Positions 2,442-17,135 of a DNA stretch of 64,000 nucleotides are shown piece after piece; position 1 is the stretch's first letter; every line of letters begins with the position of its first letter. The stretch covers positions 1 through 64,000 of the forward strand of contig JAGCNV010000055.1 of the NCBI GenBank assembly GCA_017645765.1, read 5' to 3'. Source of the stretch: a bacterium (lineage in GTDB: Bacteria > UBP6 > UBA1177). The notes beneath the pieces were generated by a model. It saw only the letters and a program-made list of their open reading frames with translations, had not been told where the DNA came from and ran no database searches. Position numbers and translations under genes: made by a program.

Positions 2442-3251
2442 ATGGAAACAAAGATGAATTTGCAGTTAGGCGACGTTCAGACAACCGCACTTATTCCGCT
2501 GGCGGTAAAGGCAAGTGAAAGCAGGCGTGAAAATCCGCGTGTAATCGACAAAAAAGCTGTGGAAATCGTTGAAGCTCTCGGCATCGATATTTCAAAGTAT
2601 GACAAGTTCATGTCACACGAAGGTGTCATTGCCCGCACGATCATGCTCGACAGGCAGCTTAAGGAAATCATCATAAAAACTCCCGAAACAGTGGTCATCA
2701 ATCTCGGTGCTGGATTCGACGACCGGTTCTCCCGCGTTGACAACGGAAAGATCCTCTGGTTCGACCTGGATCTGCCAGATGTGATCACTGCAAGAAAAAA
2801 GGCTTTCCCTGAAAAAGAAAGAGTGACTATGATTGCCGGGAACATATTGGATTCAGACTGGTGCAAACCCGTTCAGGAAGCCCTTTCAGAGAAAAAAACA
2901 AAGCCAGTATTCCTGGCTGAAGGCCTTTTCATGTATCTCACAATGGAACAGATCCAGAGTTTTCTGAATGTCCTGAAGGATAATTTCCCCGGCGGAGGAA
3001 CTCTTATCGCAGAGCAGAACAATAAACTCATGGTAAAAAACGAGAAATTTCACGATACCGTAAAAAACACGAACGCCCATTTTGTCTCAGGCACCGATTC
3101 CGGTCAGGAGATAGCCGATCTCGTCAAAGGATTCCGCCTTGTCGAGGAACACAGCTTCAATGAAGAAATGAAAAAACACAGCATACGCGGAAAACTCTTC
3201 GCATTGCTGCTGCCCAAAATGAATGACCGCTGGGCGACATTCGAGTGGTAA
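2442..3251 (+). CDS. Class I SAM-dependent methyltransferase, leucine carboxyl methyltransferase family
   Basis: 269 residues, a normal length for this family (PF04072, related to PPM1/LCMT and to polyketide O-methyltransferases). Seen: a SAM-binding motif VVINLGAGFDDRF, an acidic motif WFDLDLPDVI ending the second strand, and FLAEGLFMYL, all diagnostic of the family. Substrate cannot be told; bacterial members usually methylate small carboxylates or hydroxyls. No strong ribosome site precedes either in-frame ATG (2442 or 2454). It is separated from the feo genes by a terminator-like stem, so it is probably its own unit. Confidence 0.8.
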   Translation: METKMNLQLGDVQTTALIPLAVKASESRRENPRVIDKKAVEIVEALGIDISKYDKFMSHEGVIARTIMLDRQLKEIIIKTPETVVINLGAGFDDRFSRVDNGKILWFDLDLPDVITARKKAFPEKERVTMIAGNILDSDWCKPVQEALSEKKTKPVFLAEGLFMYLTMEQIQSFLNVLKDNFPGGGTLIAEQNNKLMVKNEKFHDTVKNTNAHFVSGTDSGQEIADLVKGFRLVEEHSFNEEMKKHSIRGKLFALLLPKMNDRWATFEW

Positions 3252-3341
3252 GGAATTCCAAAGTTTTATATTAGTAAAATCCAAAGTCTTCACTGTTATC
3301 ATGCTTATTTTATTGCAAGAACTAATAAGAACGAAGATTTT

Positions 3342-4197
3342 TTATTTTCTGACTTCTTTTTCTATTTCTTTTCGAAGCCATTCTGTCAACTTCTCTTCAG
3401 AAGGAAGATTAAGTTTGTATTTTTGGATAAAAAGGTTCGCATCAATACCGTCAGTAGCATAAATAATTTGTCTGAATCTGTCGTTTCAATTCACGCACAG
3501 ACCATGTGCCTTTGATTATTTCAAGTTCGTAAAAAACTCTTGCAAGAGGATTTTCTACGCTCAAAATCAACGAAAAGTGTGAAAACGAAAGATGTGAAAA
3601 GAGTTTTTCCGGCGGAATTTGAAGCTTGTCATCAGATTGGGCAATCAGTGATTGCCCAATTGGTGCTTGAATTTGGCAGACACTGTTTGCCAAATTACTT
3701 TCAGCGAGATCATTTTTTAATTGTGCAGACACTGTTTGCACAATTTGGCAATCACCGATTGCCAAATTACTTTCAACGAGTTCCTGTTTTGATTGGGCAG
3801 ACGCTGTCTGCCCAATTGTGCAATCACTGATTGCACAATTTACCAGGCTCGGCTCTATTGTTGGAATCAGCCTTTCATCTGCTTCGAACTCGTTAAGGAC
3901 ATAGTCAAAAATTGGTTTTTTAAGAGTTCTGAAGTCCAGAAAAAATTGACGATAAAGGCGTAAATTTCTGTATGAAAGAGATTTTTTGTTCAAATCTTCC
4001 GCGAGTTTTTGGAGAGTTCTTTCTCCATATTTAGCCCTGTCTTTGCCGTTCTGCTCGTAGTTTACGATATAAAAGCCGATGAGCCAGTTCCGCGCTGTGA
4101 CATTTCTGTTTATCGCTTTCGCAGTGTTCTCTTCAAAAACAATGTTGAGAGAATTTATCGAATTTTCAAGTTGATTGAAATCAATATTTTTTGTCAT
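3342..4197 (-). pseudogene. Broken DUF1016/YhcG-family nuclease gene: catalytic core deleted, frame lost
   Basis: The ATG at 4197 has GAGG eight bases upstream. Residues 1 to about 80 match the DUF1016 N-terminal domain (NYEQNGKDRAKYGERTLQKL, then NLRLYRQFFLDF). A tandem-repeat insert of about 75 residues follows, then the conserved LSFSHFSLILSVENPLAR...WSVRELKRQI block. The reading frame then stops at 3451. In another frame, immediately downstream, bases 3474-3342 encode IYATDGIDANLFIQKYKLNL and PSEEKLTEWLRKE, which is the usual C-terminal tail of YhcG proteins. So the PDDEXK catalytic domain (about 100-120 codons) has been deleted and the junction is out of frame. The family acts as a nuclease-like accessory or defence protein; this copy should be inactive. 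Confidence 0.8.
3636..3840. repeat. Six in-frame palindromic repeats with compensatory stem changes
   Basis: Six hairpins lie inside the DUF1016 pseudogene at 3636-3660, 3670-3696, 3719-3745, 3742-3768, 3792-3816 and 3814-3840. Each has an 11-12-bp stem and a 1-3-base loop. Stem bases differ between copies (GGGC/GCCC, TGGC/GCCA, GTGC/GCAC) but always on both arms, so pairing is kept. Two copies form pairs that share 3-4 bases, and the paired unit recurs every 72 bases, giving a 24-residue protein repeat of the type AIxDCxIxQTxSAQ...ESNL. A related copy occurs at 14291-14315. Confidence 0.9.
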
Positions 4198-4783
4198 CGC
4201 TGACCTCAATCACACAATTTTTCTTCAAATTTTTTATATCAAAAACTATCCCCTCGCAGAAGGGCTCTCCTTCATGAGTCATATAAAAAGTTGTGTGAGG
4301 AATATCCGTTTCATAAGACCACGGAATGATTTCCCAATCATCGGTGATTTTGCTTTTTTCATACCATTTTGCCGAAATATTGTTACAGTTGCCGAGTCCT
4401 TCTTTAAGAATCCAATGACCGTCTTCTTGTTCCAAATGGAAATCACCTCCGTTAAAGCAGTCTCCTTCCGCAAATATGGCACCATAGAAATCAATCACAT
4501 CATCAGAATGCCCGCATACAATGACAAGATCGTTCCTCTCCGCGCACTTTCTTTCAAATTCGCAAAAACCATCCTCATCGTCACGATTATTTAGACAAAA
4601 AGCCATTGATTTTGCGGTAAATTTTTCTGTTCGCAAAAGAAGCAAATAATCAACAAGCTTTGAATAATTCCTCCCGAATTTTTCCTTTGCTTTTTCTGCA
4701 ATAAGTTTGTTGTCATCGCAAACACTTGAGGCTCCTTCGATAAAAAGTTCGATCCATTTAACGATTTGATTCAGATTACTCAT
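4181..4783 (-). CDS. Hypothetical protein, 200 residues, phage-protein-like motif
   Basis: The ATG at 4783 is chosen because GGAG lies eight bases upstream; the longer open frame to 4897 has a membrane-like low-complexity N-terminus and no ribosome site. I cannot name the family. The segment NDLVIVCGHSDDVIDFYGAI followed by FNGGDFHL recalls a motif in hypothetical phage and mobile-element proteins (VIVFGASDD...DFxGAI...GG). No membrane segment or signal peptide. Its end overlaps the start of the broken DUF1016 gene by 17 bases, so the two were one operon in an accessory region. Confidence 0.6.
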   Translation of the reverse strand: MSNLNQIVKWIELFIEGASSVCDDNKLIAEKAKEKFGRNYSKLVDYLLLLRTEKFTAKSMAFCLNNRDDEDGFCEFERKCAERNDLVIVCGHSDDVIDFYGAIFAEGDCFNGGDFHLEQEDGHWILKEGLGNCNNISAKWYEKSKITDDWEIIPWSYETDIPHTTFYMTHEGEPFCEGIVFDIKNLKKNCVIEVSDDKKY

Positions 4784-5327
4784 TTTAGCACTCCAAAAAT
4801 AAAAACTAATATTATTGCGAATGATCTTAAATTTTCCACATTTAAACAAACAATAATTTTTTACTACAAAATATAAAACACAGCAAAAAAACCACACAAT
4901 GCAATATTGAATTTCAGCATAAAAGTCAAATTATTTTTAGATTTTTGTTATAATACAATTTTAAGATTTTTGTCTGAGGATTTGCAATCCTTACAGACCC
5001 CTCAGCCGCTTGCGGCAGCTCCCCTGAAATCAGGGGCGCCGAGAATCGGTAGAGCCGTTTCCTGACACGTCTCGCGAAATCAGAAAAAAACAGGGCTTCG
5101 TCTAAGATTCCAGTTTGGAATCTTGAACGAAAATGGGAATTATTTTGGTGAGTTATCTGTTTTTTTCCGCTGGCAGTTGGAACTGAAAGGGGGGTGACAA
5201 TTTGTCTCCACCCTTCGGAAAAAGCAGTATCACATTGGCGCATTTTCTTAATGATGAAATTTTTTGTTGATATATATTAGAAAATTAATATTCTTAATTT
5301 GAAAAAACTGTTCAATTGGATAATGAT
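4784..5327. other. Gene-free stretch of dispersed repeats
   Basis: No convincing gene. 4784-4925 is AT-rich and probably holds the promoter of the leftward gene. 4998-5040 is a hairpin element (CCCCTGA/TCAGGGG stem) related to 26494-26537. 5035-5156 is copy 1 of a repeat whose second copy lies beyond the RhuM gene (6197-6354). Inside copy 1, 5104-5124 is a further hairpin (AAGATTCCA, 3-base loop, TGGAATCTT). The 105-codon leftward frame across this stretch looks like chance reading of repeats. Confidence 0.7.
5035..5156. repeat. Dispersed repeat, copy 1, left of RhuM gene
   Basis: Shares with 6197-6354 the blocks GGCGCCGA-AATCGGTAGAG, the hairpin around GTTTCCTGA-ACGTCTC, AAATCAGAAAAAAACAGG, and TCTTGAACG-AAATGGGAA leading to GAGTTAT. 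Between the last two blocks copy 1 has a 21-base palindrome where copy 2 has an unrelated insert of about 55 bases. Confidence 0.85.
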
Positions 5328-6188
5328 ATGCAAAACGACATGACTAATCAACTTGATTTCAAAGAAAACGAAATAGTTTTGTATCAGCCGAATGATACCA
5401 TCCATTTGGAAGTCAGAATGGCGGACGAAACCGTCTGGCTCACACAGGCTCAAATTGCTCTGCTTTTTGGCACACAACGCCCGGCTATCACAAAACACCT
5501 GCGTAACATTTTTAAATCTGGAGAGCTTGAGGAATCTTCAGTTAGTTCCATTTTGGAACATACTGCTGCCGACGGGAAAGTTTACCGGACTCAGTTCTAC
5601 AATTTAGATGCCATTCTTTCTGTCGGATACCGCATAAACAGTATTAATGCTACGATGTTCCGCAAATGGGCAACCAGCGTTCTGAAAGACTATCTCCTTA
5701 AAGGTTATGCTGTGAATCAAAGGATTGAACGCCTGGAAAACCGTGTAAGCAAGACAGAAGAAAAAATAGATTTTTTTGTCCGCACCTCGTTGCCGCCAGT
5801 GGAAGGTGTTTTCTTCCAAGGTCAGATTTTTGATGCCTACGCGAAGTTTGAATCGTTCATTCAAAGTGCTGAACAAGAAATCATTCTTATTGACAATTAC
5901 ATTGATATTTCGGTTTTGGAACGCTTTTCAAAAAAGCAAAAAGATGTGAAAGTCACGATTTATACCGATCCTAAAACAAAATTAAGCGAGCAGGATATTC
6001 AAAAATTCAATGAACAATATCCACAACTTATAATAGAACACACCTCAAAAGCACACGACCGTTTTCTGATAATTGATAATAAAATCCTTTATCACATTGG
6101 TGCATCGTTAAAAGATCTCGGCAAAAAATGTTTCGCTTTTGAGATCATGGATTCAGCTTGGATAAAAGAGATCCTGAAGAATTTGTGA
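5328..6188 (+). CDS. RhuM-family protein with C-terminal HDRFLIID domain
   Basis: About 286 residues from the ATG at 5328; a TTG at 5316 and an ATG at 5340 are alternatives and no site has a strong ribosome signal. The N-terminal half is the virulence RhuM domain (ETVWLTQAQIALLFGTQRPA, ITKHLRNIFKSGEL, FYNLDAILSVGYRINS, FRKWATSVLKDYLLKGY), thought to bind DNA. The C-terminal third, from about residue 165, carries HDRFLIID and YHIGASLKDLGKKCFAF, which resembles phospholipase-D-like folds and is usual in longer RhuM proteins. Such genes are frequent in defence and mobile regions; the biochemical role is unknown. Repeat copies lie on both sides, which suggests gain or loss as a cassette. Confidence 0.85.
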   Translation: MQNDMTNQLDFKENEIVLYQPNDTIHLEVRMADETVWLTQAQIALLFGTQRPAITKHLRNIFKSGELEESSVSSILEHTAADGKVYRTQFYNLDAILSVGYRINSINATMFRKWATSVLKDYLLKGYAVNQRIERLENRVSKTEEKIDFFVRTSLPPVEGVFFQGQIFDAYAKFESFIQSAEQEIILIDNYIDISVLERFSKKQKDVKVTIYTDPKTKLSEQDIQKFNEQYPQLIIEHTSKAHDRFLIIDNKILYHIGASLKDLGKKCFAFEIMDSAWIKEILKNL

Positions 6189-6196
6189 AAATTCTA

Positions 6197-6354
6197 GGCG
6201 CCGAAAATCGGTAGAGGCGTTTCCTGAAACGTCTCATTAAATCAGAAAAAAACAGGTCTTCGATGTCGGAGCGTATGTGGCATTTCGTCATGTTGAGGCC
6301 AAGCCGAAACATCTATGATCTTGAACGGAAATGGGAATTATTTTGGGGAGTTAT
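6197..6354. repeat. Dispersed repeat, copy 2, right of RhuM gene
   Basis: Second copy of the 5035-5156 element in the same orientation, starting nine bases after the RhuM stop. It contains the hairpin AGGCGTTTCCTGAAACGTCT and, in place of copy 1's small palindrome, a block with ATGTTGAGGCCAAGCCGAAA-type sequence that can fold with upstream bases. No gene is seen here. Confidence 0.85.
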
Positions 6355-6366
6355 ATGCTCCGGTTT

Positions 6367-6891
6367 CTATGATTTAGTGTTGTATTCCTTGCTCTTTTCT
6401 TCAAGAAGTTTGAAATCGCAGCAGATTGCAGTCAAAAACCCGTAACGGCAGGAATTTTTATCGTATCGCTCCAAATAAATCGATAGCGATTTGTCTGTTA
6501 TCTCGACCCAATGTTTTCTTAAGTATCGGTATTCGTTCATTAAATAGGTGTCTTTTAAAGGATCGATAATGATTTTTTCCGTCATATTTCGCGGAACAGG
6601 AATCATGTTGTTGTGAAGCAGGTTCGAGATTTCTTCGCCGGAAGCTGTGATGAAAGTCGTTGTAAGCGGATTTCTTTTTTTAAGTCCTTTTTTCCGGCGT
6701 TCCGATGTGGTTTGGGAACTCAGCGGAATAACATACATTTTATTGTTGATGCGAACAGCCAAACCTACATAAGGTCTCCCTTTTTTCAGGCGGACGCGAC
6801 TATCAAAATTGTGAAGATACGAAAGATATTCGCTGTCAACTTTCACTATTATCGGGGAAGTTTGTTTAATATCGGAATCCAATAATTTCAT
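6367..6891 (-). CDS. toxN: Type III toxin-antitoxin toxin, ToxN/AbiQ family (full length)
   Basis: 174 residues, the usual ToxN length (PF13958). Seen: VKVDSEYLSYLHNFDSRV, GRPYVGLAVRINNKMYVIPL-SSQ in the N-terminal half, then NNMIPVP, and the final helix FLTAICCDFKLLEEKSKEY. ToxN proteins are RNases held inactive by a small repeat RNA. The ATG at 6891 has a weak AGG site eight bases upstream. Directly upstream are a terminator, a short RNA body and a promoter, the usual order of a type III locus. Defence role (abortive infection) is known for the family and inferred here. Confidence 0.9.
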   Translation of the reverse strand: MKLLDSDIKQTSPIIVKVDSEYLSYLHNFDSRVRLKKGRPYVGLAVRINNKMYVIPLSSQTTSERRKKGLKKRNPLTTTFITASGEEISNLLHNNMIPVPRNMTEKIIIDPLKDTYLMNEYRYLRKHWVEITDKSLSIYLERYDKNSCRYGFLTAICCDFKLLEEKSKEYNTKS

Positions 6892-6902
6892 AAAAACTAC
6901 CT

Positions 6903-7001
6903 AAAAAAAAAGGCTTTCCGAAGAAAGCCTCATTTTGAATCGTCCACTGAGCAGGACCACTCTTTAGTTCGGTAATATACTCAAGAATATTGTTTTGTCA
7001 A
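6903..7001 (-). ncRNA. toxI: ToxI-like antitoxin RNA 1 with its promoter and terminator
   Basis: Leftward reading: -35 TTGACA (7001-6996), 16-base spacer, -10 TATATT (6979-6974), short RNA body, then terminator hairpin AGGCTTTC-TTCG-GAAAGCCT (6930-6911) with eight T. The toxin start follows 11 bases later. The body (about 6967-6931) has only one unit, with a GTCCTGC...AGTGGAC...TTCAAAA pattern that matches the three units of toxI2 (14620-14720) at the same landmarks. Most known type III antitoxins have about two or more units, so this is unusually short. Confidence 0.7.
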
Positions 7002-7027
7002 TACTAATTTAGAAAAATTTTTAAAAA

Positions 7028-7180
7028 TTATTTTATTGTGTCTTGTTTTGACCGAGCACGGGCTTGCCAAAAATTGAGTTGTTGCAAAATTTGCAACAAC
7101 CACTCGACATGCATTTGTCGGAGCGCGGGCGGCTCGCCTGCAGGTTTTTGAGGTTCAGCTTGCGACCACAAAAAGGACTT
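7028..7180 (-). ncRNA. Candidate structured transcript beyond the CRISPR array (unproven)
   Basis: Lies directly downstream, leftward, of promoter copy A, with predicted start near 7174. Leftward it contains a GC-rich GAGC/GCTC stem, a CGACA/TGTCG hairpin (near 7102-7117) and an 11-bp near-perfect palindrome GTTGTTGCAAA/TTTGCAACAAC (7100-7078) followed by CAATTTTT, which may end transcription near 7068. If transcription continues, a 28-codon frame starts at 7114 (MHVEWLLQILQQ, ending at 7028) but it has no ribosome site. Existence of an RNA is inferred only from promoter similarity and structure. Confidence 0.35.
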
Positions 7181-7215
7181 ATTTTACTCACCTACTCAGG
7201 CATATAGCGCCTGAG
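7181..7215 (-). promoter_or_regulatory. Shared palindrome promoter, copy A, pointing away from the array
   Basis: Palindrome at 7195-7215: CTCAGGC, 7-base centre, GCCTGAG. Reading leftward, eight bases (TAGGTGAG) separate it from a TAAAAT hexamer (7186-7181). Same geometry as copies B, C and D. The bases at the -35 position are inside the palindrome and are non-consensus (CGCTAT), so activation by a bound protein, or repression through it, is likely. It matches copy B over about 38 bases and lies 30 bases from the far end of the array. Confidence 0.7.
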
Positions 7216-7244
7216 TCGAGAAAATCCGCGTTTTTTTAGTAAGT

Positions 7245-8160
7245 TTTGAGAATAGTAGAAATTTTAACGGTTTAGCAGCCGTATCGAGTACATTATTTCT
7301 CAGAATCTATCTACAATAGTAGAAATTTTAACGGTTTAGCAGCCAATAGGAGGTTAGACAATGACACTTTCAGATCTACAATAGTAGAAATTTTAACGGT
7401 TTAGCAGCCAGATTCTTAATGGAGAACTTCATACTAATCTACAATAGTAGAAATTTTAACGGTTTAGCAGCTACAGAAAGGGGTGTAAGTAGAAGGAAAT
7501 CTACAATAGTAGAAATTTTAACGGTTTAGCAGCCGGTTACTCCGTCATTTCTAAACTATGATCTACAATAGTAGAAATTTTAACGGTTTAGCAGCAATTA
7601 AACGGAGGTATCATGAACAAAACATCTACAATAGTAGAAATTTTAACGGTTTAGCAGCAACAAACCGAAATCAAAGCGATTATCGCCATCTACAATAGTA
7701 GAAATTTTAACGGTTTAGCAGCGTGTACTTGCAACATTAGATATATTGCTATCTACAATAGTAGAAATTTTAACGGTTTAGCAGCGTAGATGACATGGTC
7801 ACCATGATAGCATCTACAATAGTAGAAATTTTAACGGTTTAGCAGCCGGGCGGTTTTATCGCAGCTTTTGGCGTATCTACAATAGTAGAAATTTTAACGG
7901 TTTAGCAGCATGTTTTTTATAACACAGTATGGAGCCTATCTACAATAGTAGAAATTTTAACGGTTTAGCAGCTATAAGAACACATAAAGAAGAATACAAA
8001 AATCTACAATAGTAGAAATTTTAACGGTTTAGCAGCCTTATGCCGGAACCGGCGCGAAAGAACATCTACAATAGTAGAAATTTTAACGGTTTAGCAGCGC
8101 AGCTTGCCCTTTATATCCCGGATGTATCTACAATAGTAGAAATTTTAACGGTTTAGCAGC
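7245..8160 (-). CRISPR. Type V-A CRISPR array, 15 repeats and 14 spacers
   Basis: Repeat of 35 bases. In crRNA sense (minus strand) it begins GCTGCTAAACCGTTAAAA and ends TTTCTACTATTGTAGAT; the TCTAC/GTAGA stem with TATT loop is the Cas12a handle. Repeats (plus coordinates) start at 7245, 7309, 7374, 7437, 7499, 7561, 7624, 7688, 7751, 7812, 7875, 7938, 8002, 8064 and 8126. Spacers are 26-30 bases and all differ. Fourteen repeats are identical; the one at 7245 has lost the handle stem and is therefore the oldest, trailer-end copy. Transcription should run leftward from the cas2 side. Spacers 7344-7373 and 7596-7623 contain, on the plus strand, GGAGGT followed by ATG, as at a gene start. Confidence 0.98.
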
Positions 8161-8435
8161 CCTTGTTTTCAAAATGCGCTATAAACACATAATAAAATCA
8201 AGATGTTGCAGAACCAAATTTTGGATATCTTTTAGGGGGATATCCCCGTGAAAGATCAAAAAAATCGTGCTAAACCCTTTGCTGAAGCGGGTTTGAGCAA
8301 GAACCCACTTCTTTGGGAAGACTGAGGTTTGCTAAAAACCTAACTATTCTCAGTTGTGAATGAACCGTCAATTTTTACTACTAAACCGCGAGACCGAAAC
8401 TACATATTTTATGAAGCGAAGTCAAGACTTCATCA
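8161..8435 (-). promoter_or_regulatory. CRISPR leader between cas2 and the array
   Basis: 275 gene-free bases at the conserved-repeat end of the array, the expected place of the leader. The side next to the first repeat is AT-rich. A hairpin with GGATATC (8223-8229) and GATATCC (8239-8245) and another with AAACCC/GGGTTT (8272-8293) are present. On the plus strand, opposite to the array, three motifs recall the first bases of the repeat: TGCTAAACC (8268), TGCTAAAAACC (8330) and ACTACTAAACCG (8377). No clear consensus promoter was found. Confidence 0.7.
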
Positions 8436-8708
8436 TCACAAATACACGATATCCTGATCTCGATGAATAGCGTTTCCGTATTTTTTCAGTTTCACCTCGG
8501 AAACATCAAAAATAATAACGCTGTCACCGCCTCCGAATTTTCTGGAGTATTCGTTTTCAATTTTAAGAATGAGGTTGTCTATGACTCTGTTGGAGTTATT
8601 TACCTCATAAACAGAATATTGAAGGCGTATCGCACCGTTTTTTGTCAGCATTTTGGCAAATCTGCTGCGGAGTTTGTCATCGCTTATGTCGTAACTTATT
8701 ACTAACAT
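8436..8708 (-). CDS. cas2: CRISPR-associated endoribonuclease/integration protein Cas2
   Basis: 90 residues, normal for Cas2. It starts MLVISYDISDDKLRSRFAKM, with the conserved first-strand Asp (YDIS), then IRLQYSVYEV and a ferredoxin-like pattern ending IHRDQDIVYL. Cas2 forms the Cas1-Cas2 integrase that inserts new spacers at the leader end. Start ATG at 8708 coincides with the last base of cas1, so it is coupled to cas1. Last gene of the cas operon, next to the leader. Confidence 0.97.
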   Translation of the reverse strand: MLVISYDISDDKLRSRFAKMLTKNGAIRLQYSVYEVNNSNRVIDNLILKIENEYSRKFGGGDSVIIFDVSEVKLKKYGNAIHRDQDIVYL

Positions 8709-9688
8709 CAGGCAGTAAATTTAGGATAGTTTGTGACCGATTTTTTTTGCATGAAACAGCGATAATAATCCTGCACATACCTGAAAACTTCCATTTTATA
8801 AGGAATCAGCGCATCGAAAAAGACGCGGTAATAATCCTGGTTCTTTTCCAATTTCAAGAAATATTCACCCTTGCGGCAGTTAAAATCTTTTTCTGAGAAT
8901 TGCTTGCGGTTAAAGGCAGTTCGCACGGCTTTATCAACAATGCAGCGAAACGGTTCCATGATATCGCAGACAAGCGATTTTCGCTTAAACCAAGTTCTGT
9001 GAAAAATGCCGACATAAAGATCAAAACCGAACATTCTTAAAAACGATTCAAGGTAATTGAAAAGTATCGTGTAACCGATATCAAGTGTAACATTTATGAT
9101 ATCGCACTTTGTTCTCGGTCTTCTCGCAATCCAGTTCTGATTTTGAAAGTATGCAGAGAAATAGAGTTTTGAAGCCATTCCTTCAGCACCCATTAACTCG
9201 GAATAATCTTCAATATTTTCAATTGTTTTCATAATTGTCAACAACTGCGGCTTTGCCTTTTCGGTAAGCTCGTCCTTTTTTCTAGTATCCTGCAGGTTCT
9301 TGAGTTGATTTGCTATCTTGTTTGCAACGATTATTTTTGCGATAGAGATGTCGTTTTTATCAAATTGATACTGTTTCTGGTGAAGCAAGAAATTGGCTTC
9401 GGCATAGTTTGCCCAAAAGAAAACAGGTCTTAAATTCGGTTTCATGACAACCAGCGCAACCCCGTGTTTCTGGCATTTTTCGATCAAAGGCGTGGTTATG
9501 TGTATATGACCAACAACAAAGAGAGCCAGAATTTTCTGGAACGGCATTTTTGTTAAAGTTTTGGTTTCTTCGGAATTTTCCTTCTCTTCCTCAAGCAGCA
9601 GTTCTCCGTTGGAAACCCGCAAGTTGCGTTTGTTTACGCAGTTAATAACAAAAATTGTTCTGTATTCCAGATCTTTATGAGTAAACAT
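8708..9688 (-). CDS. cas1: CRISPR-associated integrase Cas1 (type V-A)
   Basis: 326 residues from the ATG at 9688 (MFTHKDLEYRTIFVINC); the longer open frame reads into cas4 and is not used. Seen: FVVGHIHITTPLIEKCQKHG-type N-terminal beta domain, then the helical catalytic domain with the metal-binding Glu in LMGAEGMASKLYFSAYF, and the His and acidic residues in GIFHRTWFKRKSLVCDIMEP. This is the DNA integrase of spacer acquisition. It overlaps the end of cas4 by 14 bases, so the genes are co-translated. Length fits the V-A Cas1 group. Confidence 0.97.
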   Translation of the reverse strand: MFTHKDLEYRTIFVINCVNKRNLRVSNGELLLEEEKENSEETKTLTKMPFQKILALFVVGHIHITTPLIEKCQKHGVALVVMKPNLRPVFFWANYAEANFLLHQKQYQFDKNDISIAKIIVANKIANQLKNLQDTRKKDELTEKAKPQLLTIMKTIENIEDYSELMGAEGMASKLYFSAYFQNQNWIARRPRTKCDIINVTLDIGYTILFNYLESFLRMFGFDLYVGIFHRTWFKRKSLVCDIMEPFRCIVDKAVRTAFNRKQFSEKDFNCRKGEYFLKLEKNQDYYRVFFDALIPYKMEVFRYVQDYYRCFMQKKSVTNYPKFTA

Positions 9689-10241
9689 TTTCCGTTTCCG
9701 TTTTGTCGCAAAGGTTACAATAAATACAGTGTTCGCATTTGTTTGGATTCGGCGTGAAATTCTCTGCCGGATCATAGTTTCTGAAGCGGGCAATAAACCC
9801 TTCAAACTCTTTTTCGTCCTCAGAATTTGGCATATCGACAGGAATCATTTTATTCGTGGATATTTCATAAAATGCAATACTTTCAACAGGAAATCCCATT
9901 TCACGCATACAAAACATCTGTGCCCAAAGTTGATAAATCTGTCCGCGGAATATCTTTTTTAACTGGTATTTGCGCTCTATCAGCTTCTTTCCTTTTACCT
10001 TGTACTGATCTATTTTTCCCATGATCCCGAAGCGTTCAGAGTAAACAGGCAGCGAGAGGAGAATGTCTGAACGGTTGGTTGAAGTCTTATTGTCCGTAGC
10101 CTCGTGAACCAGTTTTCCTCTTGTCTGAGGTGTGGCGTGATACATTGTTTCATCCGTATCCATATAAACATTGTGGAGATAGATGGAATATGGGCAAAAG
10201 ATGAAGTCGTTAAGTGTCGATATGGCGATGTAGTCGTCCAT
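9675..10241 (-). CDS. cas4: CRISPR-associated exonuclease Cas4
   Basis: 188 residues from the ATG at 10241, which overlaps the cas12a stop by one base (TAATG). Four iron-sulphur cysteines are visible: one in FIFCPYSIYL and three in NKCEHCIYCNLC near the C-terminus. The RecB-type nuclease core shows GKLVHEATD, GKIDQY and IERKYQ. Cas4 trims prespacers and helps choose spacers next to a correct PAM in systems with Cas1 and Cas2. Its presence implies that the locus can acquire spacers. Confidence 0.96.
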   Translation of the reverse strand: MDDYIAISTLNDFIFCPYSIYLHNVYMDTDETMYHATPQTRGKLVHEATDNKTSTNRSDILLSLPVYSERFGIMGKIDQYKVKGKKLIERKYQLKKIFRGQIYQLWAQMFCMREMGFPVESIAFYEISTNKMIPVDMPNSEDEKEFEGFIARFRNYDPAENFTPNPNKCEHCIYCNLCDKTETENVYS

Positions 10242-13200
10242 TAATCCAATCCTTGAGCATATCTCAACCACTCTTTATTGCTGATCGCCAGTTTGATTTT
10301 TGTCAAATCGTCGGCGTGCTTTATCTGCTCAACAACCCACAAGCCTTTACGGGCAATGTTGTAAGCACCGTTAGCATCGGCATTTTTAGGCAGGTTATTA
10401 CCACATGTACAACTGTCGTAGAACTCGCCTTGTGCGTTTTGCACGGGCGAAATCAGATAGTCGGTATCCGTGCCAGTGATGCTGTTTCGCATTTGCAGTG
10501 TCAGATGTAACAAGTGCAACATTTCCCTATAGAATGAAGCATCGCTTTGGTTGCAAATCTGTTCCTTAATATTACCATTCACGTCAATCTGATACTTCGC
10601 AAACAACTTCTTGATTCTTTCGGTCAAGTCAAACTCAACGCTGTCGAACTCATTGTTTTTCTCTGGATTGCGCTTTGTTTCAATGCGTGTTCCGTAGGTA
10701 CAGAGTGTCCATTTGGTCTGTGTGCCTTCGGCTTTGGTTGTGAAATTATCGTAGTCAAAAGCGAACTCAAACCAGCCTTTTGCCGAGTTTAAGCGTATGG
10801 TATCGAATTTCCCGAAGAACGCTTTTGCTTTCTCCATATTCTCGTACCGCGTATTGAATAAGTTCACAAAACCAGTTGTCGGGTCCATTTTGCTGGTATT
10901 CCACGCAGGAATGTAGAACAGGAATCCGTTTTGTTTGCCCATTTTCTGAAAACTTTCAAACTTGTTGGTCAACTGATATGCATTCAGCACTCCGCCCGTT
11001 GCGCCTGCGTCGAGTTTCTTATCCACAAGGTAGTTCAACTTGTCAATCAGCATTTTTTCAAACTTCTGATAAACCTGTTTCTCAACCTTTTGCCGTCCAC
11101 GCATAAAGCCAATATTCAAATCTTCAAGCACCACAATGGCGTTGTATTTCACCATCAGTTCGGCAATTTTGTGAACCACTTGGCTCATATAGCCTTCTTT
11201 CAGGTCCTTAATGTTCTCAATGGTCTGCCAACTGCGGCGGGCTTCGTCGCGCTGCTTCTCCTTGGCATCCAGCAAATCATGATAATTGGTGCAATAGGTG
11301 TTGCCATTATATTCGTTAACAATTTCGTTCAGAGAATATTGCTCAACGATATTGCCCTTCATATCGATGAGCGACAGGTAGAGCAAATGCCTTTCGCCGC
11401 GGTCGATACCGATGATGTGCGTGGCATTCGATTCCTTCAGATAGGCGTTCACCAGCGAGTTGATATTGTTGATTCCCGCCGCCTTGAAATTCATTGTAAT
11501 TGGCACGTGTAATTGGAATTTATCAACCATATAGCGACTGTCTTTTATCAAGTCGTAGGCAAACGTGCTTTCCTTTTTCTTGTTTTGAATGTTTTTGTTT
11601 GCAATCGCTTGGTTTGCAGGGTGCGTCGGCTTGTCAGCCCTCAAACTGTGCTTGCGGAAGAACACTTCTGCCTCGCCGTTCAGTTTGTACACCACATCAG
11701 CAAGATTTTTTTCGTCAAACAACGCCTTCCAATAAAGTGTGTGCATATTGGGCGTTCCCTTGCTGAAAGGCGAAAAATCCTTGTTGTAAATTTGGAACAG
11801 ATAGATTTTACCTTCGTCAACTAATTGGAATAATTGTTCTTTTGAAATCGGATCAAATTTAACTTGATAAGCTTGTTGATTAATGTGGTCTGTAAACTCC
11901 ACAAAAGATTTATATTCCGATGGATTTTTGAAACTAAACTGATAATCAGAATAGTATTCTCTTACTAAATGTATATAAAACTCAATATACAGTGCCAAAT
12001 CTTTTTTATTAAATGACGGACTTGATGTAAGATAAGACTGTTTTAATCTAATGTCATTGATTTCTCTTGGAAGATATGTGTTTTTCGCATTTTCCAACCT
12101 AACATTTTGTCCAACCAATGCACCTTCTTTTTCTTTTCGTCCATTAACTTTTCTTGTAATACCATCTATTCTCATAAGGTTTTGAACATTCTTCCCCATA
12201 TCACCGCCTTGAAGATACTTCATTATTGCCATTTCACTTCTTTCAGCAGGACATGACTCCAACTCATTCAAGCAAGTTCGATACATGGAATCAAGAATCG
12301 CCAAATAGTATAGTCCTTTATCATCTTTTAGAATAGCTCCCGAGTTTGCTTGTGCGTCAGGCCAACCATTCAATAATGTCGGTGTATCAAAGTTAAGTTT
12401 GATTTTCTCGTCCGAATACAGTTTTTTGGTCATACGGTTTCGCACCATATTATATAATGGCGTAATTTGGTCGAGTGTTTCCCATAACGGCGTGAATTCA
12501 CCATAGAATCGGCCATCTTTTTCACTTTCAGTACCGCAGTCAAGCAAAGGCTTTACAAAATGCTGCAAATCCTTGATGGCATCGAGCAAATTCTTGATTT
12601 TCTCAACATTAGTCTTGTCTTGCGAAAGATTTTTGTCTTCGGGATATTTAGTGTTGAGTAAGGTTTTAATCTCCGTGAAAGCGTTCTCAATCCGCGCGAA
12701 ATGGTTCAGTTTCTGACCATTATCATTGTCCTCTGCCCCCATTCCCACAAAATAATCTTCAATAGGTTTGAAATCTTCCACTTTCCCTTGCATTATGCCG
12801 TTAAGATAGGCGATGGAATAACTATCATGCAATTTTGTCATCCTTTTTTCGTACTCCTCGGCATCTTCATTTCTCTTTTGAGGATTGCTGGCTTTTAGGT
12901 CTTCCACAACTGCATTTCTAATGACCGACCAACTGCCAAAATGCTTTTGCGCAATATCAGTCAGTTGCAAATCATTGGGCAGGTAGATGTGTTCAAGGTC
13001 GAAGTCTTTGATGTTTCCCAACAAAGTTTTCAATGGATCAAAAACTTGCTCTTTCAAGTCTTGATAACATTTTCTGATGCTTTGCAGCATTTCATTATCG
13101 CTTTCAAACTCATCGGGCAACCACGAAATGGAATTGCGTTCGCTCAATATTTGCTTGAAAAGTGGCTTCAACTTGGGGAGTTTGTTACTCTTATCCTTTT

Positions 13201-14059
13201 GTTGATGCTGATTGTATAGATTTGTATGCTTATTCAACTCCCCAATAATGGCGTTATATACATCTATCTGTTTTTGGGCTAGTACTATTGAGAAATAATC
13301 CAATTGAAACATTTCCCCAACGGCGTTCACATTTAGTTCAAATGCCTTGTACACTTCATTAAAATGTGATGCCACCTCGCTTGCTGCAATTCTTTCAAAC
13401 ACATCCATGTTGTCAACAAACTTAGGCAAATTTTCGTCAATCATCCTGTGGGCAATGGAGGTTGCCTTGTCGTCTGCCACATACATATTCTTTCGGTTAT
13501 CATAAAAACCCACAAAATACGTTGTGAAATCATCAAATTGAGCAATGTCTTTTTGTATGTTTTCTTGAATCTGTTTAACAGCCTCATCTGTCAGGCTTTC
13601 ATTCCCTGGCATTTCACGAATTACATTCTCGTATTGAGGCATTTTGACAAATTTGGCCAAATCTTCCCTGATTAGTTCTTTTCCGAACAGCCGTTTGTAT
13701 TGTTCGCTCTTGGTAAACCTTTCCGAAATCTGTTTGCGCATCTCATCCTGCACTTTTGCCATAGCTTTCTTTTTCTTTTCTTTTCCGCTTGCATCGTTAG
13801 GATTGAGATTGTATTGCCTATAGAACTCATGTAATTTTTCAAAGTCCAATTTAAAGTTATTCAACATCTGATCGATGAAAGCCTTATGGTATTCATCAAT
13901 CACCTTTTTGACAGCTTTGTACGCAATGGCGCGCTCGTTATCACGCTCGATGATGCCATTTTTCTCAATGTTTTCTTTGGTTTTCCCAACAGGTTTAAGC
14001 TCAAACCTAAGAGTCTTGCTAAGCGAAAAAAGCCCCGTAAAATCAGAAAAATTACTCAT
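10241..14059 (-). CDS. cas12a: CRISPR effector nuclease Cas12a (Cpf1), type V-A
   Basis: 1272 residues from the ATG at 14059, which has GGAGG six bases upstream; a TTG four codons earlier is rejected. The N-terminus FTGLFSLSKTLRFELKPVGK is typical of Cas12a. The PAM-side WED/PI region is about residues 550-700, followed by YLFQIYNKDFSPFSKGTPN and LNGEAEVFFRKHSL. The RuvC catalytic residues are all present: Asp886 in GIDRGERHLLYL, Glu979 in VVLEDLNIGF, and Asp1228 in ADANGAYNIARKG. It should process its own crRNA and cut DNA beside a T-rich PAM. The 5' flank carries promoter copy B. Bases of about 11820-12400 (residues about 553-746) are clearly more AT-rich than the rest, which suggests a mosaic gene. 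Confidence 0.98.
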   Translation of the reverse strand: MSNFSDFTGLFSLSKTLRFELKPVGKTKENIEKNGIIERDNERAIAYKAVKKVIDEYHKAFIDQMLNNFKLDFEKLHEFYRQYNLNPNDASGKEKKKKAMAKVQDEMRKQISERFTKSEQYKRLFGKELIREDLAKFVKMPQYENVIREMPGNESLTDEAVKQIQENIQKDIAQFDDFTTYFVGFYDNRKNMYVADDKATSIAHRMIDENLPKFVDNMDVFERIAASEVASHFNEVYKAFELNVNAVGEMFQLDYFSIVLAQKQIDVYNAIIGELNKHTNLYNQHQQKDKSNKLPKLKPLFKQILSERNSISWLPDEFESDNEMLQSIRKCYQDLKEQVFDPLKTLLGNIKDFDLEHIYLPNDLQLTDIAQKHFGSWSVIRNAVVEDLKASNPQKRNEDAEEYEKRMTKLHDSYSIAYLNGIMQGKVEDFKPIEDYFVGMGAEDNDNGQKLNHFARIENAFTEIKTLLNTKYPEDKNLSQDKTNVEKIKNLLDAIKDLQHFVKPLLDCGTESEKDGRFYGEFTPLWETLDQITPLYNMVRNRMTKKLYSDEKIKLNFDTPTLLNGWPDAQANSGAILKDDKGLYYLAILDSMYRTCLNELESCPAERSEMAIMKYLQGGDMGKNVQNLMRIDGITRKVNGRKEKEGALVGQNVRLENAKNTYLPREINDIRLKQSYLTSSPSFNKKDLALYIEFYIHLVREYYSDYQFSFKNPSEYKSFVEFTDHINQQAYQVKFDPISKEQLFQLVDEGKIYLFQIYNKDFSPFSKGTPNMHTLYWKALFDEKNLADVVYKLNGEAEVFFRKHSLRADKPTHPANQAIANKNIQNKKKESTFAYDLIKDSRYMVDKFQLHVPITMNFKAAGINNINSLVNAYLKESNATHIIGIDRGERHLLYLSLIDMKGNIVEQYSLNEIVNEYNGNTYCTNYHDLLDAKEKQRDEARRSWQTIENIKDLKEGYMSQVVHKIAELMVKYNAIVVLEDLNIGFMRGRQKVEKQVYQKFEKMLIDKLNYLVDKKLDAGATGGVLNAYQLTNKFESFQKMGKQNGFLFYIPAWNTSKMDPTTGFVNLFNTRYENMEKAKAFFGKFDTIRLNSAKGWFEFAFDYDNFTTKAEGTQTKWTLCTYGTRIETKRNPEKNNEFDSVEFDLTERIKKLFAKYQIDVNGNIKEQICNQSDASFYREMLHLLHLTLQMRNSITGTDTDYLISPVQNAQGEFYDSCTCGNNLPKNADANGAYNIARKGLWVVEQIKHADDLTKIKLAISNKEWLRYAQGLD

Positions 14060-14084
14060 TTTTTCCTCCAAAGATGTTATATGT

Positions 14085-14113
14085 TTAATATTTTACAACC
14101 AATCTAAACTCAA
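14085..14113 (-). promoter_or_regulatory. cas12a: Second possible cas12a promoter
   Basis: Leftward TTGAGT (14113-14108), 17-base spacer, TATTAA (14090-14085), about 26 bases before the cas12a ATG. It may be a weak basal promoter inside the leader of the copy B transcript. Consensus match is moderate. Confidence 0.35.
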
Positions 14114-14135
14114 ATAACCCAACAAAAGACTTTTA

Positions 14136-14170
14136 ATTTTACTCATCAACTCCGGCATATAGTGCCTGAG
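14136..14170 (-). promoter_or_regulatory. Shared palindrome promoter, copy B, upstream of cas12a
   Basis: Palindrome at 14150-14170 (leftward CTCAGGC, centre ACTATAT, GCCGGAG; one mismatch to the consensus), then eight bases (TTGATGAG), then TAAAAT (14141-14136). The transcript would begin near 14129 and carry about 70 untranslated bases before cas12a. The -35 position falls in the palindrome and is not a consensus hexamer. Copy A is nearly the same sequence over about 38 bases. Confidence 0.75.
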
Positions 14171-14259
14171 ATGAAATTTTTGTTCATATTTTGAACCAAA
14201 ACGACAAAAAAACCGAAAAATTATAGGGAAAAGCTGGTATGATGCAAGTTAACCACCGC

Positions 14260-14577
14260 TCAGATGCAAATAATCAGAGGATTTTTCTGAATTAGGCAAT
14301 CAGTTATTGCCCAATTAGATTCTAGTCTTATTTTCCGACAATTTTTCCAAAACTCTTTCAAGTTATCAACATCGTTGTTCTGTGTTTTGTGCTTCTCTTT
14401 TGCCGAATCCAACGGCACGCAGTATTTATGTTCGTCGCAAATGACAATAATACCCACAAACGGACGATTTTCTTTATGAATCTGCGGTGAAACCGACTGC
14501 ACTTTGTCGTCGGCATTATGCAGATAGCGGACATATTTCATGTCCAAAAAGTAGAGATTTAATCTTTCCTGCTTCAT
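14260..14577 (-). CDS. Truncated ToxN-family toxin with a palindromic repeat at its end
   Basis: 105 residues against about 170 for full ToxN. The N-terminal half is clear: LNLYFLDMKYVRYLHNADDKV, then ENRPFVGIIVICDEHKYCVPL and DSAKEKHKTQNN. The C-terminal half is missing. The last residues, LESNWAITDCLI, are encoded by a palindrome (14291-14315) of the family found in the DUF1016 gene (VESNLAIGDCQI there). ATG at 14577 with TAGGT upstream. The toxin is probably inactive because conserved C-terminal parts are gone. The antitoxin RNA upstream looks complete. Confidence 0.8.
   Translation of the reverse strand: MKQERLNLYFLDMKYVRYLHNADDKVQSVSPQIHKENRPFVGIIVICDEHKYCVPLDSAKEKHKTQNNDVDNLKEFWKNCRKIRLESNWAITDCLIQKNPLIICI
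14291..14315. repeat. Palindromic coding repeat in toxN2
   Basis: ATTAGGCAAT...ATTGCCCAAT, differing at only two of 25 positions from the copy at 3636-3660. It is translated in the same frame as in the DUF1016 gene (ESNxAIxDCxI), although the host proteins are unrelated. Confidence 0.8.
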
Positions 14578-14587
14578 TTTTACCTAC

Positions 14588-14756
14588 AAAAAAAGCCGTA
14601 TCAGTAAAAACCAATACGGCTCGAAATTTCCACTTCCGGTAGGACTCACCGCTTTTAAAGTTCCCACTCACAGTAGGGTTCACTGCTTTTAAAGACTCCA
14701 CTTAACGGTAGGACTCACTGATGGATGCAATATAATCATTCGCGAAGAAATGTCAA
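14588..14756 (-). ncRNA. toxI: ToxI antitoxin RNA 2: promoter, three repeats, terminator
   Basis: Leftward: -35 TTGACA (14756-14751), 16-base spacer, -10 TATATT (14734-14729); transcription from about 14722. Three tandem repeats of 35, 34 and 32 bases follow (14720-14686, 14685-14652, 14651-14620), each with GTGAGTCCTAC..., AGTGG and TTTAAAA or a variant. Then a terminator AGCCGTAT/ATACGGCT (14621-14594) with a T-run. This is the classic ToxI layout before toxN. The promoter has the same hexamers and spacing as toxI1. Confidence 0.85.
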
Positions 14757-14894
14757 ATTATTTTTTAGATTTTTTTCAATTTCATTTTGATTTTTAGAAA
14801 TTCGACCTTCATATCAGTATCTAACAGCTCCATTCCGACACAAACAACAACTGATTTTTGAAAAAATCACCGAAAAAAGTATGGTTTTTCTCAA

Positions 14895-14929
14895 CTCAGG
14901 CGGTATATGCCTGACTTCGCGAGTATGAT
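14895..14929 (+). promoter_or_regulatory. Shared palindrome promoter, copy C, upstream of the WYL regulator
   Basis: Palindrome at 14895-14915 (CTCAGGC, centre GGTATAT, GCCTGAC), eight bases (TTCGCGAG), then TATGAT (14924-14929), 33 bases before the WYL gene start. This position suggests autoregulation. The rest of 14757-14962 shows no gene. Confidence 0.75.
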
Positions 14930-14962
14930 AACTCCGATTATTTTGTTTTGGGAGGCGGTGAG

Positions 14963-15928
14963 ATGGCAAATCTTGAAAGAGTGGCGTTCATAAACCACAT
15001 GATCAAAGTCAAGGGTTTCGTGACGAGAAAAGAGGTGGCGGATCATTTTGAAGTTCATATCGACACGGTTATGCGCGATATCGAATATATGCGGACTTTC
15101 CTTTCCGCGCCGCTGAAATACAAAAAAGGCAAAGGCGGCTATGTTTACGAAACGCCTTTCGAGATGATTTTTGATTCGTTTGACGATGCAGTTTTCTACT
15201 ATATTTTCGTAAAGCGTTTTTCCGATTCCTTCAAGCTCAACGGAATCCCTTATGTGCCGATAATTTCAGGAGAAATTTTATCAAAAATATCGAGTTACAT
15301 TCCGGAGGAGTTCGACGCTCTGCTGGATAAGATAACCTACGATTCTTCCGATACCGACATTCTCGAACTCAAGGATTTCAGGAACATTCTTGAATCTTTC
15401 GTAATGAAAAAGTGCGTTCACATCACCTATCTCGATGCAAAAGGCGATGAAACCACGAGAACGATAGAACCGATAAGGCTCATAAATTATTTCGGAAAGT
15501 GGTATCTTTTGGCTTTCTGCCGCAAAAGAAACGAACTGCGCATATTCCTTGTTTCGCGTTTCGTTGAAAGTGAATTGCTCAAGGAAAACTGCGAACAGAT
15601 ATTCACAAAATCGGAGATCGACAGCTATGTCGAAAGCTGCTTCGGAATGTTCAAATCGGCCAGTTCGGAACTCGCCGTTATCCGCGTTTACGAGCCGGCA
15701 TACTACCATGTCGTAAAGCAGAAATGGCATAAAAGCCAGATCACGAAAGAACTCGTCATCGACGGCAGAAAATGCCTCGAGATAACGCTGCCGGTAGGAG
15801 AACGCCACAATGAGATAATCGCCCGCGTCATGGCCCATTCTCCGGACTGCGAGATCGTTTCTCCAGTTGAACTGCGCGAACAGTGGCTCCAGAACATCAG
15901 AAAACTCCACGAAAAATTCTGTAAATAA
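14963..15928 (+). CDS. WYL-domain transcriptional regulator, likely controller of the Cas12a locus
   Basis: 321 residues from the ATG at 14963, with GGGAGG eight bases upstream; the earlier TTG is rejected. N-terminal winged helix-turn-helix of DeoR type (VTRKEVADHFEVHIDTVMRD, then IEYMRTFLSAPLKY). Central WYL domain with VHITYLDAKGDE, RTIEPIRLINYFGKWYLLAF and a C-terminal WCX-like extension (RVYEPAYYHVVKQKWH, RVMAHSPDCEIVSPVELREQW). Domain order and size match BrxR/CapW-type regulators that sit beside phage-defence systems and bind palindromes in their own promoters. Its own promoter carries palindrome copy C and cas12a carries copy B, so it is the prime candidate to bind them. Whether it activates or represses is not known. 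Confidence 0.88.
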   Translation: MANLERVAFINHMIKVKGFVTRKEVADHFEVHIDTVMRDIEYMRTFLSAPLKYKKGKGGYVYETPFEMIFDSFDDAVFYYIFVKRFSDSFKLNGIPYVPIISGEILSKISSYIPEEFDALLDKITYDSSDTDILELKDFRNILESFVMKKCVHITYLDAKGDETTRTIEPIRLINYFGKWYLLAFCRKRNELRIFLVSRFVESELLKENCEQIFTKSEIDSYVESCFGMFKSASSELAVIRVYEPAYYHVVKQKWHKSQITKELVIDGRKCLEITLPVGERHNEIIARVMAHSPDCEIVSPVELREQWLQNIRKLHEKFCK

Positions 15929-15945
15929 TTTTCATTTTTTTTCAT

Positions 15946-15980
15946 CTTCGGCAGTATGTGCCTGATATGACGGGTATAAT
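15946..15980 (+). promoter_or_regulatory. Shared palindrome promoter, copy D, upstream of the exported protein
   Basis: Palindrome at 15946-15966 (CTTCGGC, centre AGTATGT, GCCTGAT; the most diverged copy), eight bases (ATGACGGG), then a perfect TATAAT (15975-15980), 38 bases before the ATG at 16019. Lies 17 bases after the WYL stop. Confidence 0.65.
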
Positions 15981-16018
15981 CCTCCATGCTTTAGTTTTTT
16001 TACTTTTTGGAGGAGAGA

Positions 16019-16585
16019 ATGAAAAAGTTTTTTGTGTTTGTCGCCGTATTGTTTGCGGCAGCAAGTGTTTTTGCAGAAACTTCCGAAGATGTGCGGGACC
16101 AGCAGGCGTGCGAGTATGCGAGAAGAGCCGAAAACCCGGAAGTCTGGCAAAATTATCTCGAAAAATTTCCGAACGGAATCTGCAGTTTTGAAGCTGAAAA
16201 CGAGATCGCAAATTTGAAAAACGGAGTCCGGAAACAAAAATCCGAAAAATCAGATAACCCCAGTGTTGTTGTAATAAATAACGAGCCTGTGCGTTACTAC
16301 AGACCGTACAAAGGTTCCGGCACGGCATTGCTCGTTATCGGGCTGTTGGCAGATCTTGTAGTGGCAGATACCTTGATAATCTTGGGTGTTACCAATGATA
16401 GCGACAAGGCTCTCGCAGCAGGAATAGTAACCGGTATCGTTGCCCTTCCTATATGGATCACCGGTGCCTCTTTGGTGGCACAGAAAAGACCCGTTCCAAA
16501 TCAAAATCAGAAGATCGAACTGAGCAGTTTATCGCTATCTCCGACCAAAGGCGGAATGTTCACATCGGTCGGATTCAGATTCTAA
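16019..16585 (+). CDS. Exported protein of unknown function with two hydrophobic segments
   Basis: 188 residues from the ATG at 16019 (GGAGG six bases upstream). Signal peptide MKKFFVFVAVLFAAASVFAE with likely cleavage after VFA. Residues about 35-60 (NPEVWQNYLEKFPNGICSFE) look like a half-TPR segment found in envelope proteins. Two hydrophobic stretches follow near residues 100-118 and 128-145, and the end MFTSVGFRF resembles an outer-membrane beta-strand end. No family recognised. It shares promoter type with cas12a and the WYL gene, which is the only clue to role. Confidence 0.7.
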   Translation: MKKFFVFVAVLFAAASVFAETSEDVRDQQACEYARRAENPEVWQNYLEKFPNGICSFEAENEIANLKNGVRKQKSEKSDNPSVVVINNEPVRYYRPYKGSGTALLVIGLLADLVVADTLIILGVTNDSDKALAAGIVTGIVALPIWITGASLVAQKRPVPNQNQKIELSSLSLSPTKGGMFTSVGFRF

Positions 16586-16668
16586 AGGTAAAAAAGCATC
16601 TGATTCTGCCAAATCATTAGATATATCTCAAACAAATTAGATAAAGCTAAAAAAATCCCCACACCCTC

Positions 16669-16721
16669 TTGACAAAACTTTTTTAACAAGTAATGATTAG
16701 TTGTTCATTTGTTCAACTAAT
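16669..16721 (+). promoter_or_regulatory. Promoter and operator of the metal-efflux operon
   Basis: TTGACA (16669-16674), 16-base spacer, TAATGA (16691-16696). An inverted repeat, ATTAGTTG...CAACTAAT (16696-16721) with inner GTTCATTTGTTC, overlaps the end of the -10 and the start site. That is the classic place and form for an ArsR/SmtB repressor site. Confidence 0.75.
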
Positions 16722-16738
16722 AAAAGAGGAGGTCTCAA

Positions 16739-17122
16739 ATGGTAGATTCGGAGTCTTCGTGCACTTGCAATGTGATACACGAAAACATTGTTGATGATGT
16801 CAGGTCAAAAATGGTATCTGATGATGAATACCTGAACCTGGCGGATCTGATGCAGCTTTTCGGCGACTATACGCGAGTTAAGATCCTGCATGCTCTCGAA
16901 CAGAGCGAAATGTGCGTATGCGACATCGCCGTGCTGTTAGGGCTCACAAAATCGGCGGTTTCGCACCAGCTCAAGGCTTTGCGTCTTGCGGGACTCGTGA
17001 AATTCCGGCGCGAGGCGCAGATCGTCTACTACTCGCTGGCTGACGAGCATGTCAAAAAAATTATCGACACGGGATTCGAGCATCTCGAAGAACTGATGCC
17101 GGACTACCGGGAAACGCATTGA
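16739..17122 (+). CDS. ArsR/SmtB-family metal-sensing repressor (CadC-like)
   Basis: 127 residues. N-terminal CTCNVIHE and the helix-alpha3 motif SEMCVCDIAVLLGL give the cysteines that CadC-type sensors use for Cd/Pb/Zn. Helix-turn-helix: GLTKSAVSHQLKALRLAGLV, then the wing KFRREAQIVYYSL. The C-terminal helix has DEHVKKIIDTGFEHLEE, which could hold the alpha5 zinc site. An operator-like palindrome lies 17 bases upstream and the efflux ATPase starts 14 bases downstream, so this is a repressor released by metal. ATG 16739 follows GAGG. Confidence 0.92.
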   Translation: MVDSESSCTCNVIHENIVDDVRSKMVSDDEYLNLADLMQLFGDYTRVKILHALEQSEMCVCDIAVLLGLTKSAVSHQLKALRLAGLVKFRREAQIVYYSLADEHVKKIIDTGFEHLEELMPDYRETH

Positions 17123-17135
17123 TCAGGAGGCAGTT

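Follow-up and report, generated by a model that had tools for sequence, protein, structure and literature searches.

A functional-looking, putatively WYL-regulated operator-promoter at the trailer end of a type V-A CRISPR array, probably a displaced relic

The CRISPR locus and its three promoter copies

The window analysed here is the whole 64,000-nt stretch of DNA (positions 1-64,000), and the features relevant to this study are collected in Table 1. On the minus strand, the order is cas12a, cas4, cas1, cas2, the leader, the CRISPR array, a promoter copy (copy A), a terminator stem and a toxIN cassette. Past cas12a, on the plus strand, lies the gene for a WYL regulator, with the fragments of a second toxIN cassette between these two genes. 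The orientation of the Cas12a repeats, read from the sequence, puts transcription of the array on the minus strand, which places copy A beyond the last (truncated) repeat, on the trailer side of the array.

Table 1. Positions of the features in the 64,000-nt window
Feature	Position	Strand	Remark
toxN, ToxN/AbiQ family type III toxin-antitoxin toxin	6367-6891	-	
Promoter of the toxIN cassette, sigma-70 type, TTGACA-16-TATATT	6974-7001	-	
28-codon frame	7028-7114	-	
Intrinsic terminator, upstream flank of the toxIN cassette	7077-7101	-	
Dispersed repeat TGTCGGAGCGCGGGCGGCTCGCCTGCA	7116-7142	no strand	
Copy A -10 element TAAAAT	7181-7186	-	distance from the palindrome as at other sites; no -35
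Copy A operator, perfect palindrome ACTCAGGC-gctatat-GCCTGAGT	7194-7216 (palindrome match 7195-7215)	-	
Left remnant of A-type element, CTCAAAACTTACTAAAAAAACGCGGATTTTCTCG, joined to the truncated last CRISPR repeat	7217-7251	-	
Last CRISPR repeat, without the GTAGAT end required for the Cas12a handle stem	7252-7279	-	
Type V-A CRISPR array	7280-8160	- (transcribed strand)	
cas2	8439-8708	-	
cas1	8711-9805	-	
cas4	9678-10271	-	
cas12a	10244-14059	-	
Copy B operator, cas12a promoter	14150-14170	-	-10 TAAAAT at 14136-14141
Copy C operator, WYL regulator promoter	14895-14915	+	-10 TATGAT at 14924-14929
WYL regulator (HTH-WYL-WCX, 321 aa), with copies A, B and C as its proposed targets	14963-15925	+	
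Weaker site of the same WYL-site model (E 6e-12)	15911-15981	+	precedes the 192-aa protein gene
Exported-type 192-aa protein gene, no Pfam match	16007-16582		

Copy A resembles the cas12a promoter (copy B), as the original prediction had noted; the two are 89 % identical over 35 ungapped nt or 83 % identical over 47 nt with gaps. The palindrome pattern returned three matches in the window, against 0.02 expected, and none of 100 shuffles reached three. The third match, absent from the original prediction, is located upstream of the WYL regulator gene (copy C), and copy A is 78 % identical to this promoter over 63 nt. Copy A is a real operator-promoter copy, and a chance match is excluded. The idea that it is a regulated promoter under joint control with cas12a is supported, as the operator and -10 element are common to copy A, cas12a and the adjacent WYL gene and recur in the relatives as a genus-wide regulon.

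The DNA ahead of copy A had been described as gene-free, which is correct as far as approximately 7001; beyond this point, however, lie the promoter of the toxIN cassette and the ToxN gene, on the same strand. This promoter is strong (11 of 12 sigma-70 matches), ToxN is intact (match 5e-30) and the cassette has its own promoter plus a terminator before toxN. No tandem toxI repeat was found by eye before position 6891 at the intact toxN. The truncated toxN between the WYL gene and cas12a (14263-14730) is accompanied by two tandem 34-nt toxI-like repeats and a third partial copy. The V-A locus is flanked on both sides by type III toxin-antitoxin loci (6367-6891 and 14263-14730). The stretch from a methyltransferase gene (2442-3251) to the WYL and cation-ATPase genes (window 2442-17136) looks like a defence hot spot, at which the related loci L141, L143 and L147 carry helicase or AbiTii operons in place of cas12a. 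The exported-type 192-aa protein gene is kept beside the WYL gene in several genomes and may belong to the WYL locus as its third component.

A genus-specific set of sites and its putative WYL regulator

The operator is a 21-bp palindrome, CTCAGGC-N7-GCCTGAG, whose spacing to a TANNAT -10 element is the same in all aligned sites. TANNAT begins 19 nt from the dyad centre, the palindrome ends 8 nt upstream of the hexamer and the operator spans about -41 to -21. No -35 element was detected at the sites, where the best hexamers matched 2.1 of 6 positions compared with 2.5 in shuffles.

Genome-wide statements made here rest on pattern and model searches of the genome collection. The pattern including the -10 element was matched in 12 of the 15 same-genus genomes and in 0 of 131 other genomes. 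A sequence model of the sites returned hits in 14/15 genus genomes at E <= 0.01, the weakest of which include the operators of a paralogous WYL protein. The 2.65-Mb genome of the window contains one further site with at most one mismatch; it adjoins a cas9 locus of type II-A (Csn2 identified), and copy A matches it at 87 % over 78 nt. The sites are followed by the WYL gene, by cas12a (divergent alleles included), by the gene for the exported-type protein that adjoins WYL and, in relatives, by genes for UvrD helicases of GajB-like type, an AbiTii-containing operon and an SNF2/PLD-type helicase. Copy A appears to be one site of a genus-specific WYL regulon of anti-phage systems, with sites, spacing and distribution all being read directly from the genomes.

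Two observations were made on the CRISPR loci themselves. Cas12a of the two other V-A loci in the genus (L136 of G008 and L138 of G014) is only 27 and 50 % identical to that of the window, and the adjoining Cas4/Cas1/Cas2 are 91-95 % identical; the Cas12a alleles appear to have been swapped over a conserved adaptation module in these genomes. A tracrRNA-like sequence (anti-repeat and terminator) was detected at 6610-6730 of L008 (G000:C21) in the genome of the window, divergent from cas9 in its type II-A locus with Csn2.

The WYL regulator carries a WYL domain over the Pfam cutoff, with HTH_11 and WCX just under theirs, and is recognized by the PADLOC models for CRISPR-associated WYL proteins (4e-31). 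A Foldseek search with a structural model of modest confidence (mean pLDDT 64) returned PafBC, BrxR, DriD and CapW at E values of 1e-13 to 1e-9, PafBC being the best match to this model and DriD a strong one too; three of these proteins match the regulator by sequence as well. The palindrome sits in the WYL gene's own promoter (copy C), and likewise in the orthologs examined. A paralog, ~65 % identical and with changed residues in the HTH region, has TTGGGC-N7-GCCCAA in its own promoter at the same spacing from a TATAAT element, and this second palindrome forms a separate site set of 36 matches in 12/15 genus genomes (loci L231-L260). We assigned the first palindrome to the WYL protein encoded in the window, as its putative operator, because it occurs in the own promoter of the orthologs examined, was not found outside the genus and is replaced by a different palindrome at the paralog. 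A survey of 80 Cas12a loci for WYL genes alongside cas12a in other taxa turned up nothing beyond weak, distant homologs near two of them.

The position of the operator offers a clue to the mode of regulation. Sites of the activator DriD cover a weak -35 and keep a constant spacing to the -10; that of the activator SiwR is a 19-bp palindrome just upstream of the -10 (PMC12340889, PMC10693628). Sites of the repressor CapW, on the other hand, overlap the -10, and the inverted repeat of BrxR lies downstream of it (PMC9122601, PMC9122588). As the operator described here is located over the -35 position, like those of DriD and SiwR and unlike those of CapW and BrxR, activation is favoured, and we consider it reasonably likely on promoter geometry alone. 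Most likely, a dimer of the WYL regulator would bind the 21-bp palindrome in place of the missing -35 and recruit RNA polymerase to the TANNAT -10 element. The protein would then be an activator of the DriD/SiwR/PafBC type, turning on itself, cas12a and other defence operons.

Origin of copy A and the sequence downstream of it

Copy A belongs to a set of eight outward-facing elements of about 170 bp each (A-type elements). Others are located at the edges of three type II-A loci in three genomes, beyond the tracrRNA terminator, and at the edge of one type I-B locus (Cas6, Cas8b, Cas7 and Cas5 identified); the remainder adjoin a RhuM gene and two genes that we named ORF6N and DUF1016 on the basis of sequence. 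Mean pairwise identity among the eight is 0.90 in the operator and 0.96 in the -10, and then falls to 0.67 across the following 30 nt, where six of the elements reach 0.83, and to 0.28 beyond +36. In copy A, the left half of the element is missing, and the truncated last CRISPR repeat runs directly into it.

The other two V-A arrays of the genus also end in parts of this element. At the array end of G014, the left remnant and the right flank are present and the operator is gone, and at that of G008, the right hairpin alone remains; of the three V-A loci, one retains an operator at its array trailer. Because both arrays end in remnants of the same element, an A-type element was probably already at the array end in the ancestor of the three V-A lines and was eroded in two of them, and it is this erosion that makes a relic the best reading of copy A. 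The alternative in the original prediction of a duplicated promoter that was left behind, here understood as the outcome of a locus rearrangement, is the best fit, given the two arrays that end in operator-less remnants.

Copy A had been proposed to drive an unknown RNA or a small toxin. Both features on which this proposal drew are present: a stem of 11 pairs (7101-7077, tail CAATTTTTGG) and a frame of 28 codons that begins at 7114. However, the sequence below 7100 belongs to the toxIN cassette as its upstream flank, and this flank is 91-96 % identical in three other genomes without copy A at that place. Covariation, which the original prediction had suggested looking for in the hairpins of related genomes, was found in this stem (7077-7101; 6 of 10 pairs across four genomes), but it concerns a stem that belongs to the toxIN flank and is present without copy A. 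Such covariation is to be expected of a working terminator. Nor is the frame conserved, as its ATG is kept in L141 and absent in L143 and L147. With the stem assigned to the toxIN flank, the frame not conserved and identity down to 0.28 beyond +36, the proposed product was not borne out.

Three candidate products were rejected: the 28-codon frame as a conserved peptide, on account of its start codon being lost in two of three relatives; a 52-aa frame downstream of copy A, which has no Pfam family and whose conservation at the DNA level stems from the toxIN flank; and a conserved small-RNA body, as identity among the A-type elements is lost beyond +36. An Rfam scan of the window returned a tRNA only, and the transcript region of copy A had no exact stretch of at least 9 nt in common with, or complementary to, the array or the cas12a leader. 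The sequence TGTCGGAGCGCGGGCGGCTCGCCTGCA, found at window positions 7116-7142 and at many other loci, is a genus-wide dispersed intergenic repeat, often situated between defence-type genes.

Several other explanations were weighed. The A-type elements may be divergent control regions in which the WYL site acts on the defence gene lying across the element (cas9, cas6, RhuM, DUF1016) and outward transcription is incidental; copy A would then once have controlled a partner gene whose place the array has taken. Indeed, a cas or candidate defence gene on the far side starts divergently from the site in 7/7 other A-type cases, the left half AATAATCAACAATTTTTCC is common to the II-A and I-B elements, and CapW represses both directions of transcription from one site. 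We nevertheless regard this explanation as unlikely, since no part is more strongly conserved than the rightward -10 and a consensus leftward promoter was not found in the left half of the A-type elements. It is quite unlikely that a functional small RNA of ~100 nt, induced by WYL and ending at 7077, is made from copy A and acts on the CRISPR or toxIN system or together with it. Such an RNA would agree with the intact operator and -10, the strong terminator about 100 nt downstream, the folding of the stretch, which is better than that of shuffles (z -2.5), and the first ~30 nt common to six of the eight A-type elements. Yet these elements show no conservation beyond +36, the transcript body is pieced together from the dispersed repeat and the flank of the toxIN cassette, the terminator stem also occurs where copy A is absent, the 5′ hairpin, broken here, is found elsewhere as a free-standing repeat, and the Rfam scan gave no match to the stretch.

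A CreR/CreTA-like element, in which the identity between copies A and B would reflect a crRNA-like guide to the cas12a promoter, is extremely improbable. It was suggested by the match of copy A to the cas12a promoter and by its place adjoining the array, and CreR has been reported for type V-A. However, a Cas12a handle was not found on either strand of 6900-7315, the last repeat being without GTAGAT, and the lack of a handle near copy A excludes a crRNA-like guide. The same match also recurs at the WYL, cas9-edge and helicase promoters with conserved spacing to the -10, as would an operator. The comparison with CreTA or CreR made in the original prediction is accordingly set aside, there being no crRNA handle near copy A, no crRNA-like antitoxin and no conservation of the 28-codon frame. 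We also give little credence to a more far-reaching scheme, in which one WYL activator would coordinately induce V-A, II-A and I-B CRISPR-Cas together with the GajB-like helicase and abortive-infection operons, and the A-type border promoters, copy A included, would make short inducible RNAs in that response.

The best explanation as a whole, to which we attach a probability of roughly 0.6, is that copy A represents a WYL operator-promoter of the activator type and a displaced relic with no conserved product. Most likely, it is a WYL-dependent promoter of functional appearance that has been stranded at the end of the array and has no product of its own; the A-type element was cut off on its left by the V-A array end and is now probably a relic. 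If it fires, copy A would give a read-out of at most ~100 nt, stopping at 7077 in the terminator of the toxIN cassette and yielding neither a conserved RNA nor a conserved peptide. The perfect palindrome and intact -10 element count against a relic, being unexpected in an old one. Against the explanation as a whole count the ~30 nt after the -10 that are common to six of the eight A-type elements and include a hairpin with a compensatory change in one genome. These shared nucleotides could reflect conservation of a short 5′ end of an RNA; the hairpin, however, also occurs free-standing without the promoter and is broken in copy A.

Comparison with known systems

The joint switching-on of different bacterial defence systems is poorly known, and the notion of one sensor for many defences is directly testable by mapping the binding sites of one protein. 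As for the 'unknown RNA' at the array end, it is most likely a stranded switch and not a new gene. Copy A is like CreR/CreTA in its position near the cas genes and the array and unlike them in having neither a crRNA handle nor a toxin RNA, the shared sequence being a promoter-operator and not a guide.

The predicted regulator is reminiscent of DriD, SiwR and PafBC, which are likewise HTH-WYL-WCX proteins with a 19-21-bp palindrome that covers a poor or missing -35 and lies upstream of the -10. Those proteins respond to DNA damage or oxidative stress, whereas the regulon predicted here consists of CRISPR-Cas and other anti-phage operons. With the repressors BrxR (BREX) and CapW (CBASS), it shares the domain order, autoregulation (here predicted) and palindromic operators in a defence island. 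Its operator differs from that of CapW in not overlapping the -10, lying upstream over the -35 position, and from that of BrxR, whose repeat is downstream of the -10, in lying upstream of it.

Members of the BrxR/CapW family are found beside many defence systems (PMC9122601, PMC9122588), and Sll7009 has been reported, as cited in PMC9122601, as a WYL repressor of one type I-D CRISPR locus. The protein described here resembles Sll7009 in being a WYL protein tied to a CRISPR locus and differs in the CRISPR types concerned, V-A among them, as against I-D at a single locus. WYL regulators beside defence systems, CRISPR included, are already known (PMC9122601, PMC9122588; see also PMC4012209). Unlike BrxR and CapW, however, the single regulator described here appears to have sites in trans at three CRISPR types and other systems. 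What appears less usual is the presence of a single putative operator at V-A, II-A and I-B loci and at several defence operons across one genus, alongside a paralog with a separate operator of its own.
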